Source: Bacteroidia bacterium
Lineage (GTDB): Bacteria > Bacteroidota > Bacteroidia > CAILMK01 > JBBDIG01
Direction: 5' to 3'
NCBI GenBank assembly: GCA_040880525.1
Contig: JBBDIG010000037.1
Span: 1 to 64,000, forward strand
DNA: 64,000 bases
Numbering within the stretch: the stretch's first letter is position 1; the number at the start of each line of letters is the position of its first letter. Below, one piece after another: positions 256 to 10,056 of the stretch. Under the pieces are notes generated by a model. It was not told the origin of the DNA. It did no database searches and worked only from the letters and a program-made list of their open reading frames with translations. A program made the position numbers and the translations under genes.

Positions 256-360
256 TCACAGATCATTTAAGGGGGGCGGAACAATATACTGATCCTTGCG
301 GCCAATTGAGTGCATCTCAACCTGGAAGCGCTTGATGAAGTTGTACTTCTCTGGAACAAA
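256..360 (-). pseudogene. Decayed gene fragment with FIKRFQ motif, copy 1
   Basis: Read on the minus strand, this stretch encodes a peptide containing EKYNFIKRFQVE followed by SIGRK, ending at TGA 256-258. It lies immediately downstream of, and in the same frame as, the stop codon of the 361-843 gene. Three related fragments occur at 900-1060, 1781-1920 and 4985-5100, so this is one of a family of decayed copies. The motif faintly recalls the C-terminal region of Bacteroidota type II topoisomerase A subunits (ParC/GyrA). That assignment is from memory and weak. Confidence 0.4.
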
Positions 361-2897: not shown

Positions 2898-3112
2898 TCA
2901 CTCAAACAACCCCATAATATCCTTCTTCCCCAACTGCTTTAGCACGTTCTCATCGGTGGAGATGATCTCGGAGGCTACGGCCCGTTTCTTTTCCTGAAGT
3001 TGTAGGATTTTTTCTTCAACGGTGTCTTTGCAGATCATGCGGTAGGCGATAACCTTTTTGTCCTGGCATATACGGTAGCAGCGGTCTATGGCTTTCTACA
3101 GCGGGGTTCCAT
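2898..3112 (-). pseudogene. Copy of the 3' end of the SNF2 helicase gene, copy 1
   Basis: About 215 bp closely match the last part of the intact SNF2 gene (6247-6465), including the stop codon at 2898-2900 and the coding region for the terminal KKDIMGLFG. It carries small changes, including a lost block around CTTTCTACAGC, and ends abruptly in GGGGTTCC, where a REP element begins. No upstream SNF2 sequence is present, so this is a 3' fragment rather than a gene. Confidence 0.8.
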
Positions 3113-3220
3113 GTAGATCGGAATTGCATTCCGATTATTCGCGATAGCGAATACCTGTTGCAACATCACCACCCGCAACGGCCCGTACCCGGGCCACTCG
3201 TAGTGCAACTGCGAGCTACC
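3111..3220. repeat. REP element A, four hairpins
   Basis: It starts ATGTAGATCG and ends CGAGCTACC. It contains four short palindromes: CGGAAT/ATTCCG, ATTCGC/GCGAAT, GGCCCG/CGGGCC and an imperfect CTCGTAGT/ACTGCGAG. It matches the element downstream of the RAYT gene (6136-6247) almost base for base. It lies between two copies of the SNF2 3' end. Confidence 0.8.
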
Positions 3221-3393
3221 TCACCCAAACAACCCCATAATATCCTTCTTCCCAAGTTGCTTTAGCACATTCTCATCGGTAGAGATGATCTCGGAGGCTA
3301 CGGCTCGCTTCTTTTCCAGGAGTTGGAGGATTTTCTCTTCTACGGTGTCTTTGCAGATCATTCGGTAGGCGATTACCTTTTTGTCCTGGCCAT
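3221..3393 (-). pseudogene. Copy of the 3' end of the SNF2 helicase gene, copy 2
   Basis: About 170 bp match the intact gene from its stop codon (TCA at 3221-3223) up to the codons for the QD motif of the helicase C-terminal domain (TTTTTGTCCTGGCCA). Similarity then stops and the 3' end of the T9SS gene begins. REP element A abuts its stop codon just as REP element C abuts the stop codon of the real gene, so REP plus tail seem to have been duplicated together. Confidence 0.8.
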
Positions 3394-4984: not shown

Positions 4985-5100
4985 GTTTGGTTGATGCCCA
5001 TCTTATCGGTGGCGAACTTGAGGTCGGAGTCCATACGGAGAAATAAAATTTGCGGCCAAATGCGTGTGGCTCTATCTGGAAGCGCTTGATGAAGGGTGCT
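4985..5100 (-). pseudogene. Decayed gene fragment with FIKRFQ motif, copy 4
   Basis: The minus strand encodes FIKRFQIEPHAFGRKFYFS, then, in another frame, MDSDLKFATDKMGI. These are the same blocks in the same order as in copy 3 (1781-1920), broken by a frameshift near 5040. It lies directly upstream of the T9SS gene at 3401-4894. The stretch 5101-5326 holds no supportable gene except a ~25-bp piece near 5302-5325 resembling the SNF2 GGTGLNL codons, ending at a REP boundary. Confidence 0.4.
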
Positions 5101-5326
5101 TCTTATTGCCATGCCAGTACAGGCAAAGTGATTTCTCGCTGCGGGGCGAAACGGGCATTTAGTAGTCGTAACTCCCTACCAAGGAATTTTTGTCCATTCT
5201 TTATTAAACAAAAAATTATCAGTTTTATTGAAAAATGTTCGTTGGTAAAAGTGCTAAAGTATATTGAAAAAATAAAGTTGCCAACCCTTTTCCATAGCCA
5301 TGATGAGGTTGAGGCTGGTATCGCCA

Positions 5327-5513
5327 ATGTAGATCGGAATTGCATTCCGATTATTCGCGCCCGCGAATAGGTGTTGCCATACCCCACCCGCAGTGGCCCG
5401 TATCCGGGCCACTCGCATTCCGAGACATTCGTGATAGCGAATACTTGCTGCAACATCACCGCCCGCAAGAGTCCCGTATTTCGAACCACTCGCAGTGCAA
5501 CTGCGAATTACAT
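5327..5513. repeat. REP element B, compound unit upstream of RAYT
   Basis: It begins ATGTAGATCGG and ends GCGAATTACAT. It has CGGAAT/ATTCCG and ATTCGC/GCGAAT hairpins, a GGCCCG/CGGGCC hairpin, then a second partial unit with an ATTCGTGATAGCGAAT hairpin and a terminal CTCGCAGT/ACTGCGAA hairpin. It is about 80 bp longer than elements A and C and looks like two tandem units. It ends 16 bp before the transposase start codon. Confidence 0.75.
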
Positions 5514-5529
5514 TTACTACCTTAGCTCA

Positions 5530-6141
5530 ATGTATTACCCGAAGGAACATTATCACCGGAATTTACCACATTACCAGCCTCAGGATGGTATCTTCTTCAT
5601 CACCTATAGGCTATTTAATTCAATACCCTTAGAAGTGCTGGACAAATTAAAAGCGGATTATATGTCGGAATTGAATTCCGCTAATAATGAGGGACAGCGA
5701 GTAAAAACCGCCCAATCCCGCTACTTCGGCTTATTTGATAATCTGCTCGACAAAGCCAACAGCGGCCCCACGTATCTTTCAGAACCAGCCATCGCTAAAA
5801 TTGTAGTCGACAGCCTGCATTATCTCGATAGCCGCGATTGGACGCTCATTAGTTTCTGCATTATGCCAAATCATGTACATCTGGTTGTGGAAAAACCGGA
5901 GAAGGAGCTATTCCGAATCCTGCAATCGCACAAACGGCATACAGCCCGGGAGTCAGACAAGCTGCTGAACCGCACTGGCAACTTCTGGCAAGCTGAATCA
6001 TACGATCACTGCGTTCGTGATGGAAATGAGTTGGAACGAATAATCAAGTATGTGCTAAATAATCCGGTAAAAGCAGCATTGGTCAAAAGCTGGGAAGATT
6101 GGCCACATTCCTACTGCAAGCCAGCATTGAATCCAATGTAG
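5530..6141 (+). mobile_element. REP-associated tyrosine transposase (RAYT, Y1/IS200-like)
   Basis: The 203-residue start at MYYPKEHYHR is chosen because the longer frame from 5371 runs through the upstream REP hairpins. Features of the Y1 transposase family are an N-terminal GIFFITYRLF strand, the metal-binding HUH motif MPNHVHLV (H115, H117), a C-terminal NFWQAESYDHCVRD segment with candidate catalytic Y158, and the hallmark IIKYVLNNPVKAALV. RAYTs nick and join single-stranded REP hairpins instead of moving as a classical IS. The stop codon TAG (6139-6141) lies inside the ATGTAG terminus of the downstream REP. The gene is flanked on both sides by REPs, the expected REPtron arrangement, and appears intact. 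Confidence 0.9.
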
Positions 6142-6247
6142 CTCGGAATTGCATTCCGAGACATTCGCGATAGCGAATAGCTGCTGCAACATCACCACCC
6201 GCAGCGGCCCGTACCCGGGCCACTCGTAGTGCAACTACGAGCTACAT
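6136..6247. repeat. REP element C, four perfect hairpins
   Basis: It is bounded by the inverted repeats ATGTAGCTCG (6136-6145) and CGAGCTACAT (6238-6247). Inside are four perfect palindromes: CTCGGAAT/ATTCCGAG (6142-6160, loop TGC), ATTCGC/GCGAAT (6163-6178), GGCCCG/CGGGCC (6206-6221) and CTCGTAGT/ACTACGAG (6223-6241, loop GCA). It overlaps the stop codon of the RAYT gene at one end and touches the stop codon of the SNF2 gene at the other. Confidence 0.9.
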
Positions 6248-9200
6248 CACCCAAACAGTCCCATAATATCCTTCTTCCCAAGTTGCTTTAGCACATTCTC
6301 ATCGGTGGAGATGATCTCGGAGGCTACGGCTCGTTTCTTTTCCTGGAGTTGGAGGATTTTCTCTTCCACGGTGTCTTTGCAGATCATGCGGTAGGCGATC
6401 ACTTTTTTGTCCTGGCCAATGCGGTAGCAGCGGTCTATGGCCTGGTTCTCTACTGCGGGGTTCCACCAGGGGTCTACAATATACACATAGTCGGCAGCGG
6501 TGAGGTTGAGGCCGGTACCGCCCGCTTTGAGGCTGATGAGAAATACGCGGCAATTGGCATCTGTTTGGAAATTATGCACACTCTGCAGGCGCGCTTTTAC
6601 CGAACTTTTTCCGTCCAGATATTCATAGCAAATTCCCTCGTTATTAATGTTGCGTTCTATTACTTTCAGCATTTGAACAAACTGGGAAAATACTAGTAAT
6701 TTATGGTTACCGGTTTTTTCCTTTATGTGCCGCAGCAATTCTTCAATTTTGGTGGAGTGGCCTTCGTATTTTTCCTTTTCATTCAATATTTCTGGCGTGT
6801 CGCAGATCTGGCGCAGTTTGGTAAGCCCCTCCAGTACAGAGAAGCGGGCTTTGGCCAGTCCGTCCTGCTCAATCTTCTTCAGGAGGCGGTTGCGGTAATT
6901 ATTCCTGAAAGCATCATAAACTTTTCGCTGCGGGGCTTTCATTTCGCAATAAATAATGTCCTCGGTTTTGTCCGGCAGTTCCGTGGCTACCTGCTCTTTG
7001 GTGCGCCTCAATACAAACGGATTTATGATCTTCTGCAGGCTGGCGGCTTTTGCTTCATTGCGCTGCTGGTCTATCGGTTTAGCATATTCTGACTTGAAAG
7101 AAGCGGCACTGCCCAACAGACCGGGATTGAGGAAACTCATTTGCGCGTACAGGTCGAAAGTATTGTTCTCTATGGGCGTACCGGTGAGGGTTATGCGGTT
7201 ATTGGCCTGGAGCAGCCGCGCAGCCTTGTACCGCCTCGAAGCAGGATTCTTGATGGCTTGCGATTCATCCAGCACCACATAATTAAAACGATAATCACTC
7301 AGTAATTTAATATCATTGGCCATGAGACCATAGCTGGTAAAAATAATTTCGTATTGATCAAATTCTGAAGTATTTTTAATTCGATCCTGCCCATAATAAA
7401 AATGCACCTTAATGTCGGGCGCAAATTTCTTCAATTCGTTTTCCCAGTTAAACAGGAGCGAAGTGGGCACTACTATGAGGTTGGTTTGGCTGTTATTCTC
7501 TAGTATCTTTTTTAGGAACGTGATCATTTCGAGGGTCTTGCCCAGGCCCATATCATCCGCCAGAATGCCGCCCCAACCGAATTCATCCAGGAAGCAAAGC
7601 CAGTTGTAGCCGTCTTCCTGGTAATGCCTTAAAGTAGCGTGAATGCCCTCCGGCACTGGCTGCTGTTGAATTTTGTTGAAATTTAACAATTTTTGTTTTT
7701 TCTCTTCGATAAATGCCCGTGAATCTTCATCATTTATATTATCAAAAAGATCGTCCACAAGGCTGAATAGTTTATCGGAGATTTTCAGTTTGTTGCCTTT
7801 TATATCGCTGTGCTGAAAAATACTTTCCAGTTTCTTTACCCATTCTTCCGGCAACATGCCCATTGTTCCGTCATCCAGTTTCACGTATCCATCAGCAGGA
7901 GAAAATCTCTTTTTGAGGTTGGCCAGCGAAATGCGGGTGTCACCAATAACGATCTCCGCTTTGGCCTCAAACCAGTCGGTTTTATGGTTCACGCTAAAGG
8001 ATATTTTTGGCGGATGAGGATTTACTTTGAAATTCTTCATTTCCTTCCAGCCAAAAACTTCAATACCCATTTCCTGCATTTTAGGAAAAGCCTTCAGGAA
8101 CCACTGCCCGGCTGAGAAATCTTCAAAAGTCAAATGAAAAAAATCGCTCCGCTGCTGTATTTCAAAAACCGGATGCAATTGCCGGAAATCGTTGAGAAAA
8201 TGCAGTTCAAATTCCCTGTCGCGCTGCAGTTTTCTTATGCTTTTGCCCTTTACCACGTCCACCACATCATGGCCTGAAAGCACCTCTACCTGGTGATTCT
8301 TTTTGTATTGTACCACCGGCTTAAATATTACGAAATTGCCTACTTCTGATAAATAAATGGACCGTTGCACAGGACTTAGTTTTTTAGTTTCAATATTAAA
8401 TGATGAAATACCACTGAAATCTATTTCATATTTTGGAGCCAATTTAGCCAGGTAATTGGCAGCCATTTCCGGAAATTTAGCGGTGGCGCACATCACCGGC
8501 TCATTTCGCAGCATCACTTCAAAGGCCAGTGTTTCGCGCAGGGAGGAGTGCAGGTACAGTGTATCTCCAAACTCCAGGCAAAGGGACTCGTACGAGTGTA
8601 CCTGGGGGGAGCGAAGCGGGTGCAACCGGTTATTGATAAAAAGATGCGGAGAGGCCGTGATAAAGCCATCTTCTTCCGTGAGCACCATTTTCACCGGAGG
8701 GCTGGAACATACCATCTTCACCGGTTTCAGGTCTTTTTTAGAAACATGGAATTGGGGATTATTTGCACCCTGGTAAATATAAAGCCTGGGATGGTTCTCT
8801 AAAACATCGGCAACTGAGTGAAGCAGATGGAACCGTTCGCTGAAAACATCCTCCTGCTCCCGGGAATTAAAGCTATGATGCCGAAGCCGCCTGGTAACCT
8901 TCATCAGCGGAAAATCAGTATCCTCATATTCTAATATTCCTACATCAGCTACCTTTTCTACCGGTTTTATTTTTTTCTGAAAACTCTTTCCGGCAGGCCC
9001 TAATACTCCGGCTATAGGAACAATAGAGAGTCCCTTTGTCTCAGGGTCGGAAAAGAAGCAATATCCCTGATGGTAAACTTCCTGCGGGGATGGGATCTGT
9101 AATTCCTTTTCAGGCTTTCCTTCTACTATTGCCGAAAGCAGTTCCTGATTAAAGTGATTCGGGTTACTTAGCCCTTTGTACTTCCCGGTGGGGATAAATT

Positions 9201-10056
9201 GAAGTCCGTCTTCATCATATTGCATGGCCAGGAATTTCTCCCAATTCTCATCAGCGGGCAAGCCTAATCTCTCCATTATTCTTTTGGCGTCAATAGCAAG
9301 AAGATCAGGGTTAAGCATTTTAAGAAATAGCTCGCGGGTTTCCATTAATTCGTATAGCACGCTATAGCCGTGGAGACAAAGCTTTTTCACTTTTCGGTTG
9401 CAGGAACAGGTTACTGCCAAGTCATTCTCCTGCTGTTTCAGCACCACCTCAAAGGTTTCCCGCGATCTCCAGCCTGAAATAAATGCCGCTTGCGCAAAGA
9501 TGGTGTGCGGCCTGAAGGTCAGGGAATATTCTTCCAGGGCATCAGGGTCTCTGCTTGCAGAAGCAACGTGATTGTACAAGTCTGATTGGGTAAGGCTGCT
9601 AAGGTCCGGAATCAGGTATGGTTTTGATGCCGGATGCATAGTATTTTTATTTTTCATGGTAAGCCTTACGCTACCTTTTTCAGGAATGGCATCAGGAGCG
9701 GATTCTTGGCTGTCAGGGAGAACTCGGAGATTCCCTGACGCGCCCTCTTTTTCTTTCCATGCATTTTGCAGCGCGAAGAGGGCAGCCACCTGGTGTTTAC
9801 ACGGTGTCATGGGATAAGGACAAGTGCATTCATAATGAAGCAAGGAAAACTTCTTCCTGGTAGAAAACCATAATTTCACGGTGTACAGGTTCGTTCCCTG
9901 CACCTTAAAGCTGGCCGTTCCTGAGTTCCAGTTTACCCGCTCCATATTCACCTTCTTTGAAAAAAAAATGAGGATTCCTTTCTCAAGAGTTTGCTTGGGA
10001 GCACTCTTATTGAGGAGCTTGTCTATTTTGCCTGCAAAGTCCATCGTTTCAGTCAT
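6247..10056 (-). CDS. SNF2/RapA-family helicase with SWIM zinc fingers
   Basis: This 1269-residue protein has an N-terminal SWIM zinc finger (CTCPYPMTPCKH, about 76-88) and a second CxC...CxH cluster (CSCNRKVKKLCLH, about 220). A long family-specific middle follows, then the Swi2/Snf2 ATPase: Walker A DDMGLGKT near 834, DESQ box near 929, TGTPIEN, and the helicase C-terminal motifs SLKAGGTGLNL near 1179 and QAIDRCYRIGQ. It is an ATP-driven DNA translocase likely to remodel protein-DNA complexes; RapA-like and other bacterial SNF2 proteins act on RNA polymerase or chromatin proteins. The stop codon abuts REP element C. Two truncated copies of its last ~170-215 bp lie at 2898-3393. The gene itself appears complete. 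Confidence 0.9.
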   Translation of the reverse strand: MTETMDFAGKIDKLLNKSAPKQTLEKGILIFFSKKVNMERVNWNSGTASFKVQGTNLYTVKLWFSTRKKFSLLHYECTCPYPMTPCKHQVAALFALQNAWKEKEGASGNLRVLPDSQESAPDAIPEKGSVRLTMKNKNTMHPASKPYLIPDLSSLTQSDLYNHVASASRDPDALEEYSLTFRPHTIFAQAAFISGWRSRETFEVVLKQQENDLAVTCSCNRKVKKLCLHGYSVLYELMETRELFLKMLNPDLLAIDAKRIMERLGLPADENWEKFLAMQYDEDGLQFIPTGKYKGLSNPNHFNQELLSAIVEGKPEKELQIPSPQEVYHQGYCFFSDPETKGLSIVPIAGVLGPAGKSFQKKIKPVEKVADVGILEYEDTDFPLMKVTRRLRHHSFNSREQEDVFSERFHLLHSVADVLENHPRLYIYQGANNPQFHVSKKDLKPVKMVCSSPPVKMVLTEEDGFITASPHLFINNRLHPLRSPQVHSYESLCLEFGDTLYLHSSLRETLAFEVMLRNEPVMCATAKFPEMAANYLAKLAPKYEIDFSGISSFNIETKKLSPVQRSIYLSEVGNFVIFKPVVQYKKNHQVEVLSGHDVVDVVKGKSIRKLQRDREFELHFLNDFRQLHPVFEIQQRSDFFHLTFEDFSAGQWFLKAFPKMQEMGIEVFGWKEMKNFKVNPHPPKISFSVNHKTDWFEAKAEIVIGDTRISLANLKKRFSPADGYVKLDDGTMGMLPEEWVKKLESIFQHSDIKGNKLKISDKLFSLVDDLFDNINDEDSRAFIEEKKQKLLNFNKIQQQPVPEGIHATLRHYQEDGYNWLCFLDEFGWGGILADDMGLGKTLEMITFLKKILENNSQTNLIVVPTSLLFNWENELKKFAPDIKVHFYYGQDRIKNTSEFDQYEIIFTSYGLMANDIKLLSDYRFNYVVLDESQAIKNPASRRYKAARLLQANNRITLTGTPIENNTFDLYAQMSFLNPGLLGSAASFKSEYAKPIDQQRNEAKAASLQKIINPFVLRRTKEQVATELPDKTEDIIYCEMKAPQRKVYDAFRNNYRNRLLKKIEQDGLAKARFSVLEGLTKLRQICDTPEILNEKEKYEGHSTKIEELLRHIKEKTGNHKLLVFSQFVQMLKVIERNINNEGICYEYLDGKSSVKARLQSVHNFQTDANCRVFLISLKAGGTGLNLTAADYVYIVDPWWNPAVENQAIDRCYRIGQDKKVIAYRMICKDTVEEKILQLQEKKRAVASEIISTDENVLKQLGKKDIMGLFG

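Follow-up and report, generated by a model that had tools for sequence, protein, structure and literature searches.

Few mobile DNAs are as small as REPINs. In the E. coli REPtron, a single-copy gene for the HUH-Y1 protein TnpA_REP, with its GTAG-contact residues, is flanked by inverted GTAG-hairpin repeats of which further copies are dispersed between genes, and these features recur at the locus described here, which differs in having two additional internal hairpins per element and far fewer copies; the stems of E. coli REPs are also longer and bulged, unlike those reported below. Cutting and joining of REPs has been established for TnpA_REP (cited in PMC6006769), and REPtrons outside the Gammaproteobacteria, Bacteroidetes included, were catalogued in 2018 (Quentin et al., PMC6006769). 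The first-pass annotation of this DNA therefore overstated the rarity of such units outside the Gammaproteobacteria, but its description of the four-hairpin form as less described holds up, and the accessible text of PMC6006769 makes no mention of a four-hairpin element. ORFs beside REPs that obtain their TAG stop codon from a GTAG foot were described by Di Nocera et al. 2013 (PMC3733652), and both REPs at or adjoining rayt stop codons and rayt gene ends captured inside BIMEs have been reported (Nunvar et al. 2010, PMC2817692). What is new here is the four-hairpin form of the REPIN, the REPtron itself and the use of a foot as a stop codon being already known.

The window, by which we mean the whole 64,000-nucleotide stretch analysed (contig JBBDIG010000037.1 of a Bacteroidia bacterium), contains at positions 5327-6247 what our data support as a REPtron, namely an intact, single-copy RAYT gene with members of its own REPIN family on either side (Table 1). 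The likely mobile unit is the four-hairpin element of 110-140 bases, closed by an ATGTAG/CTACAT outer stem. Taken as a whole, we consider it probable that the locus and its dispersed copies are explained by a REPtron with its own unusual four-hairpin REPIN as the likely unit moved by the RAYT, together with ordinary duplication.

Table 1. Positions of the REPtron components and of neighbouring features in the window.
Feature	Position	Strand	Remarks
Third element	3111..3219		within segmental duplication; covariance model 98.8 bits
SNF2-type 3' end, second copy	about 2898..3110		matches 6247-6465, 89%; directly left of third element
SNF2-type 3' end, third copy	3220..3392		directly right of third element
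Element A, two four-hairpin elements fused	5327..5513		right foot GTAA-type
RAYT gene (REP-associated tyrosine transposase, HUH-Y1), 203 aa	5530..6141	+	Pfam, NCBIfam, phmmer, AlphaFold2/Foldseek
Element C, four-hairpin REPIN	6136..6247		ATGTAG foot left, CTACAT foot right; covariance model 112 bits
Hairpin H1 (REP), CTCGGAATTGCATTCCGAG	6142..6160		perfect 8-bp stem, 3-nt loop; three covarying pairs among copies
Hairpin H2 (extra, internal), ATTCGCGATAGCGAAT	6163..6178		perfect 6-bp stem; three covarying pairs among copies
Hairpin H3 (extra, internal), GGCCCGTACCCGGGCC	6206..6221		perfect 6-bp stem; one covarying pair among copies
Hairpin H4 (inverted REP), CTCGTAGTGCAACTACGAG	6223..6241		perfect 8-bp stem; four covarying pairs among copies
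Putative SNF2-type helicase gene	6247..10056	-	convergent with RAYT; named from helicase motifs visible in the translation

The RAYT reads from an ATG at 5530 as an uninterrupted ORF with all catalytic residues. The motifs noted for it beforehand, H115/H117 (NHVH) and NNPVKA, are present, as are W153-Q154 and Y174, the latter in YVLNNP. A longer ORF of 256 aa from a GTG at 5371 was discarded as a mechanical extension into element A. The protein matches Pfam Y1_Tnp with 33.8 bits and scores above the cut-off of the NCBIfam model NF047646 (REP_Tyr_transpos; 88.7 bits, cut-off 80). Its sole sequence relative of solved structure is E. coli TnpA_REP (4ER8; phmmer, E 1.1e-5), which is also the best PDB fold match (Foldseek, E 3.1e-7, TM 0.54/0.65) of an AlphaFold2 model with a pLDDT of 89.6 and a pTM of 0.86. 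The HUH histidines and the catalytic Tyr are invariant in 40 relatives, and the residues with which TnpA_REP contacts GTAG are largely kept (W153, Q154, H160, R163), with the position of E. coli Glu100 (E100) occupied by D159, an Asp likewise invariant in the 40 relatives. The case for the RAYT acting on the four-hairpin element is one of homology, in that these kept contact residues and the 4ER8 fold suggest that it would. Elsewhere in the source genome (G000:C48, C29, C15, C19) seven further sequences, some of them paired, pass the Pfam cut-off as Y1 transposases, and these probably belong to other subclasses with their own repeats.

As described in PMC6006769, TnpAY1 subclasses 2.4 and 2.7 both share with the RAYT the NHVH, W-Q and Y..NNP motifs, long GTAG REPs, and a distribution over Bacteroidetes and scattered phyla. 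Subclass 2.7, for which that description gives E100 replaced by D, [ND]HVH, WQ and long GT[AG]G REPs, fits in part, through D159, NHVH, WQ, the long REPs and the short HUH-Tyr spacing; its Tyr motif, by the same description, is YI[LR][NQ]NP compared with YVLNNP here. Subclass 2.4 (Bertels group 4) fits in its Bacteroidetes hosts and double-foot REPs, but its reported median HUH-Tyr spacing is 88, with a variable insertion, and no REP is inserted in the present RAYT. We dropped this assignment because the spacing here is 57 (57-76 among the 40 relatives).

Element C has the four perfect hairpins and the ATGTAGCTCG/CGAGCTACAT ends attributed to it by the first-pass annotation, and is a REP doublet (a REPIN) plus two extra internal hairpins. 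As in other REPINs, one end has a GTAG foot with a hairpin and the opposite end the inverse, a hairpin with CTAC; the two further hairpins of this lineage occupy the spacer that separates the REPs. Its 25-nt arms are 84% complementary. Modelled as single-stranded DNA, element C reaches a folding energy of -33.1 kcal/mol, compared with -14.3 for shuffled sequences (z -7.2; 0/200), the opposite strand giving a z of -6.8. In the lowest-energy fold H1 pairs with H4 along a single long hairpin with H2 and H3 inside it, the arrangement of a REPIN; the alternative fold is that of four separate hairpins. Element A consists of element positions 1-91 followed by 16-112, the fusion lying within H4/H1, and it also folds stably (z -6.2). 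GT[AG]G feet at hairpins flank the RAYT at 5329 and 6138 on the forward strand and at 6245 on the reverse strand, with a GTAA at 5511 on the reverse strand. Short diverged repeats, 74-85% identical, are also scattered in the first 5 kb of the window (296-350, 882-960, 1807-1917 and 5002-5103).

That only three or four copies might exist had been named beforehand as an outcome that would count against this reading. A search of the genome with a covariance model (R1) built from eight element copies instead returned about 24 places with the four-hairpin plan, spread over 12 contigs; 14 of these scored at least 75 bits, and the total is a lower bound because several copies lie at contig ends. The pattern of the end hairpin (REP) alone matched 29 times, versus 3 for a reversed control. 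The element is thus a genuine dispersed family situated mostly between longer ORFs, even if about 24 places, with contig-end copies perhaps undercounted, are few for a REP family (REPINs often exceed 100 copies). At least two diverged sequence families share the four-hairpin plan: the RAYT-linked family of the CTCGGAATTGCATTCCGAG type (contigs C37, C32, C28 and C34), and a second family of the GTAGGTCC type (C33, C9, C57, C30, C24, C23, C22 and C16), which is the most numerous and whose stem sequence is unlike that of the RAYT-linked family. The source genome also holds a lone REP (G000:C16:37427-37451, L195) whose GTAG foot is the stop codon of a non-RAYT gene.

Without guidance, RNAalifold recovered the outer stem and the four hairpins from the copies. 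Both sides had changed in 11 of 34 pairs, a count equalled by none of 500 shuffles and by no slid version; the outer stem was invariant across the 8 copies. We give covariation as pairs and not as cells because eight copies represent few independent lines. The H2 and H3 stems have been kept by compensating changes between the families, which speaks for selection on these stems or for a copying process that requires them.

In the mechanism that we favour, the element would become single-stranded, for example during replication, and so offer a substrate to the RAYT, which would bind the GTAG foot and the hairpin of the end REP; Y174 would then cut beside the end REP, and the RAYT would join the element elsewhere, giving rise to dispersed intergenic copies. 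Given its homology to TnpA_REP, this RAYT most likely recognises a single-stranded element by its GTAG foot and end hairpin and then moves it. Copies have also been multiplied by ordinary duplication that took in the ends of adjacent genes.

A less probable but tenable alternative is that the RAYT does not, or no longer does, move elements, and that the copies come from tandem and segmental duplication with gene ends and from recombination between hairpins. Duplication has contributed, as the third element in the window is not an independent one: 3111-3392 matches 6136-6418, which spans element C and the adjoining SNF2-type 3' end, as a copy with 94% identity, a case resembling the captured rayt ends of Nunvar et al. 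2010 (PMC2817692). Similarly, the GTAGGTCC elements on C33, C9, C57 and C30 share one flank, which resembles a T9SS-type C-terminal domain, and direct flank copies occur on both sides of the elements at C33c, C33d, C9 and C37:3111. Against duplication as the sole source, about 10-11 flank contexts are mutually unrelated, and the RAYT ORF has remained intact with all of its catalytic residues. We also considered a long target duplication at every insertion, an idea rejected because copied flanks were seen at only 4 of 19 places (perhaps at a fifth, with 18 bp at C24:1018), because several of these have one common context, and because copied flanks were seen in a two-hairpin relative as well. 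At G000:C33:46587-47543, C9:127-252, C57:28652-28781 and C30:10-273, four-hairpin elements stand in tandem with repeated T9SS-like pieces (NRCGETIWKGENEGWDGT), those on C30 forming a tandem array in which H4 is shortened.

The RAYT and element C are physically joined, as the first reading of the sequence had proposed: the GTAG foot of element C ends with the RAYT stop codon, TAG at 6139-6141, and at the other end the TGA of the SNF2-type gene (6249-6247) overlaps the last base of the element by one base. It is for this reason that element C could be read as mainly a two-way mRNA 3'-end or terminator hairpin serving the two convergent genes, and its very stable fold would suit such a role. We regard this as unlikely, given that copies elsewhere lie in mixed contexts and not only between convergent genes, that no terminator-like stem with a T-run was found in element C, and that an Rfam search with the element matched no family; the structured-RNA and terminator readings were set aside on the last two grounds. 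That the whole of 5327-6247 transposes in one piece as an IS200-like insertion sequence is very improbable, for in spite of its compact build (16 nt separate element A from the RAYT ATG, and element C holds the stop) the RAYT is single copy compared with many elements, and its score of 22.8 bits against the IS200 transposase model NF033573 falls far below the cut-off of 55, so that membership in IS200/IS605 was rejected.

The overlap of stop codon and foot is real and recurrent. In 11 of 76 full-length RAYT relatives a GTAR foot ends in the stop codon and is directly followed by a REP-size stem; the expectation is 0.56 when derived from the remaining stop triplets of that DNA, a background that itself includes REPs. 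This is the lower figure, obtained with perfect or one-mismatch stems only; looser stems give 18 of 76. Mapped onto the RAYT tree, the looser trait requires 14 changes, at least 7 of them forced by supported branches, indicating that it arose or was lost many times. The overlap was not treated as unreported, in view of PMC3733652 and PMC2817692: as in those two studies, the foot gives a TAG to a neighbouring ORF and gene ends are captured between REPs, but here the overlap is counted over 76 relatives with a background rate, and it extends to GTAA feet with TAA stops.

The source genome is the sole member of its family, and of its genus, in our collection. Model R1 found no match in 9 of the 11 relatives from the same order. 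One of the order relatives (G006) encodes a RAYT 53% identical to that of the window, accompanied by its own REPs, and both G006 and a second genome of its genus (G007) carry two-hairpin REPINs whose end hairpins are of the same kind and which lack H2 and H3. A search with stricter filters across 395 genomes of the class, the source among them, gave no further four-hairpin element at E 1e-6, the sole other matches being the two-hairpin REPINs of G006 and G007. With none found in the 394 other genomes searched, the four hairpins are, as far as sampled, a variant of this lineage. About a dozen REPIN-like places were noted in G007, where no close RAYT match was found at E 1e-30, and such elements may therefore outlive their RAYT or use another one. 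RAYT relatives from the Bacteroidota, Ignavibacteriota, Cloacimonadota, Chloroflexota and Calditrichota have REPs beside the gene that are built of GTAG, an 8-bp stem and a 3-nt loop, with a different sequence each time.

Our searches of RAYT relatives also turned up RAYTs situated in frame within long genes. Five lie in HsdR genes (L121, G190:C2:249793-250332; L122, G216:C2:626974-627513; L196, L197 and L198) with the layout HSDR_N - Y1_Tnp - SWI2_SNF2, all at one insertion site between HSDR_N and the motor; TIGR00348 was matched in two pieces. Two lie in Eco57I/PglX-like methylase genes (L110, G005:C231:5517-6065; L199, G617:C3:1429-2064), and three in DUF1156 methylase genes (L200, G596:C53; L202, G699:C36; L201, G427:C1:142125-142631), of which L200 and L202 have a common insertion site and L201, whose genome is one contig, a different one. 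L202 matches an anti-phage DUF1156 model in two pieces, below its cut-off. For the HsdR and Eco57I types the insertion site is repeated across different families (two families for L110 and L199). The RAYTs in HsdR and DUF1156 genes have translated palindromes of REP size on both sides, upstream of the HUH motif by about 110-185 codons and downstream of it by 70-125; palindromes are also present at L110, and none were found at L199, which is without the catalytic Tyr (KHIRENP). Where measurable between species, dN/dS of the RAYT part was 0.05-0.2, and the host parts were alike. We found no papers on in-frame RAYTs in such genes, in literature that covered few of the subscription journals.

These in-frame RAYTs with REPs in restriction and methylase genes are a stronger finding than the variant in the window. 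Although speculative, and offered as a possibility that we rate below even, REP-RAYT might be a reading-frame-compatible module whose foot either ends a gene, as it does in the window, or is read through, and in several related genomes entire REP-RAYT-REP units might have turned into in-frame portions, preserved by selection, of anti-phage restriction and methylase proteins, which would thereby gain a second, single-strand nuclease; for the window, the boldest version is that the inner hairpins would be working parts, such as a second binding site or a switch of transposition state, and not passengers.

Lineages with two and with four hairpins, having similar end hairpins and compensating changes in all of them, constitute a natural experiment on which hairpins are needed. 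The overlap of gene and element illustrates how difficult it can become to part a RAYT from its repeat, and the in-frame RAYTs in related genomes raise the question of whether RAYTs have been taken up into anti-phage defence.
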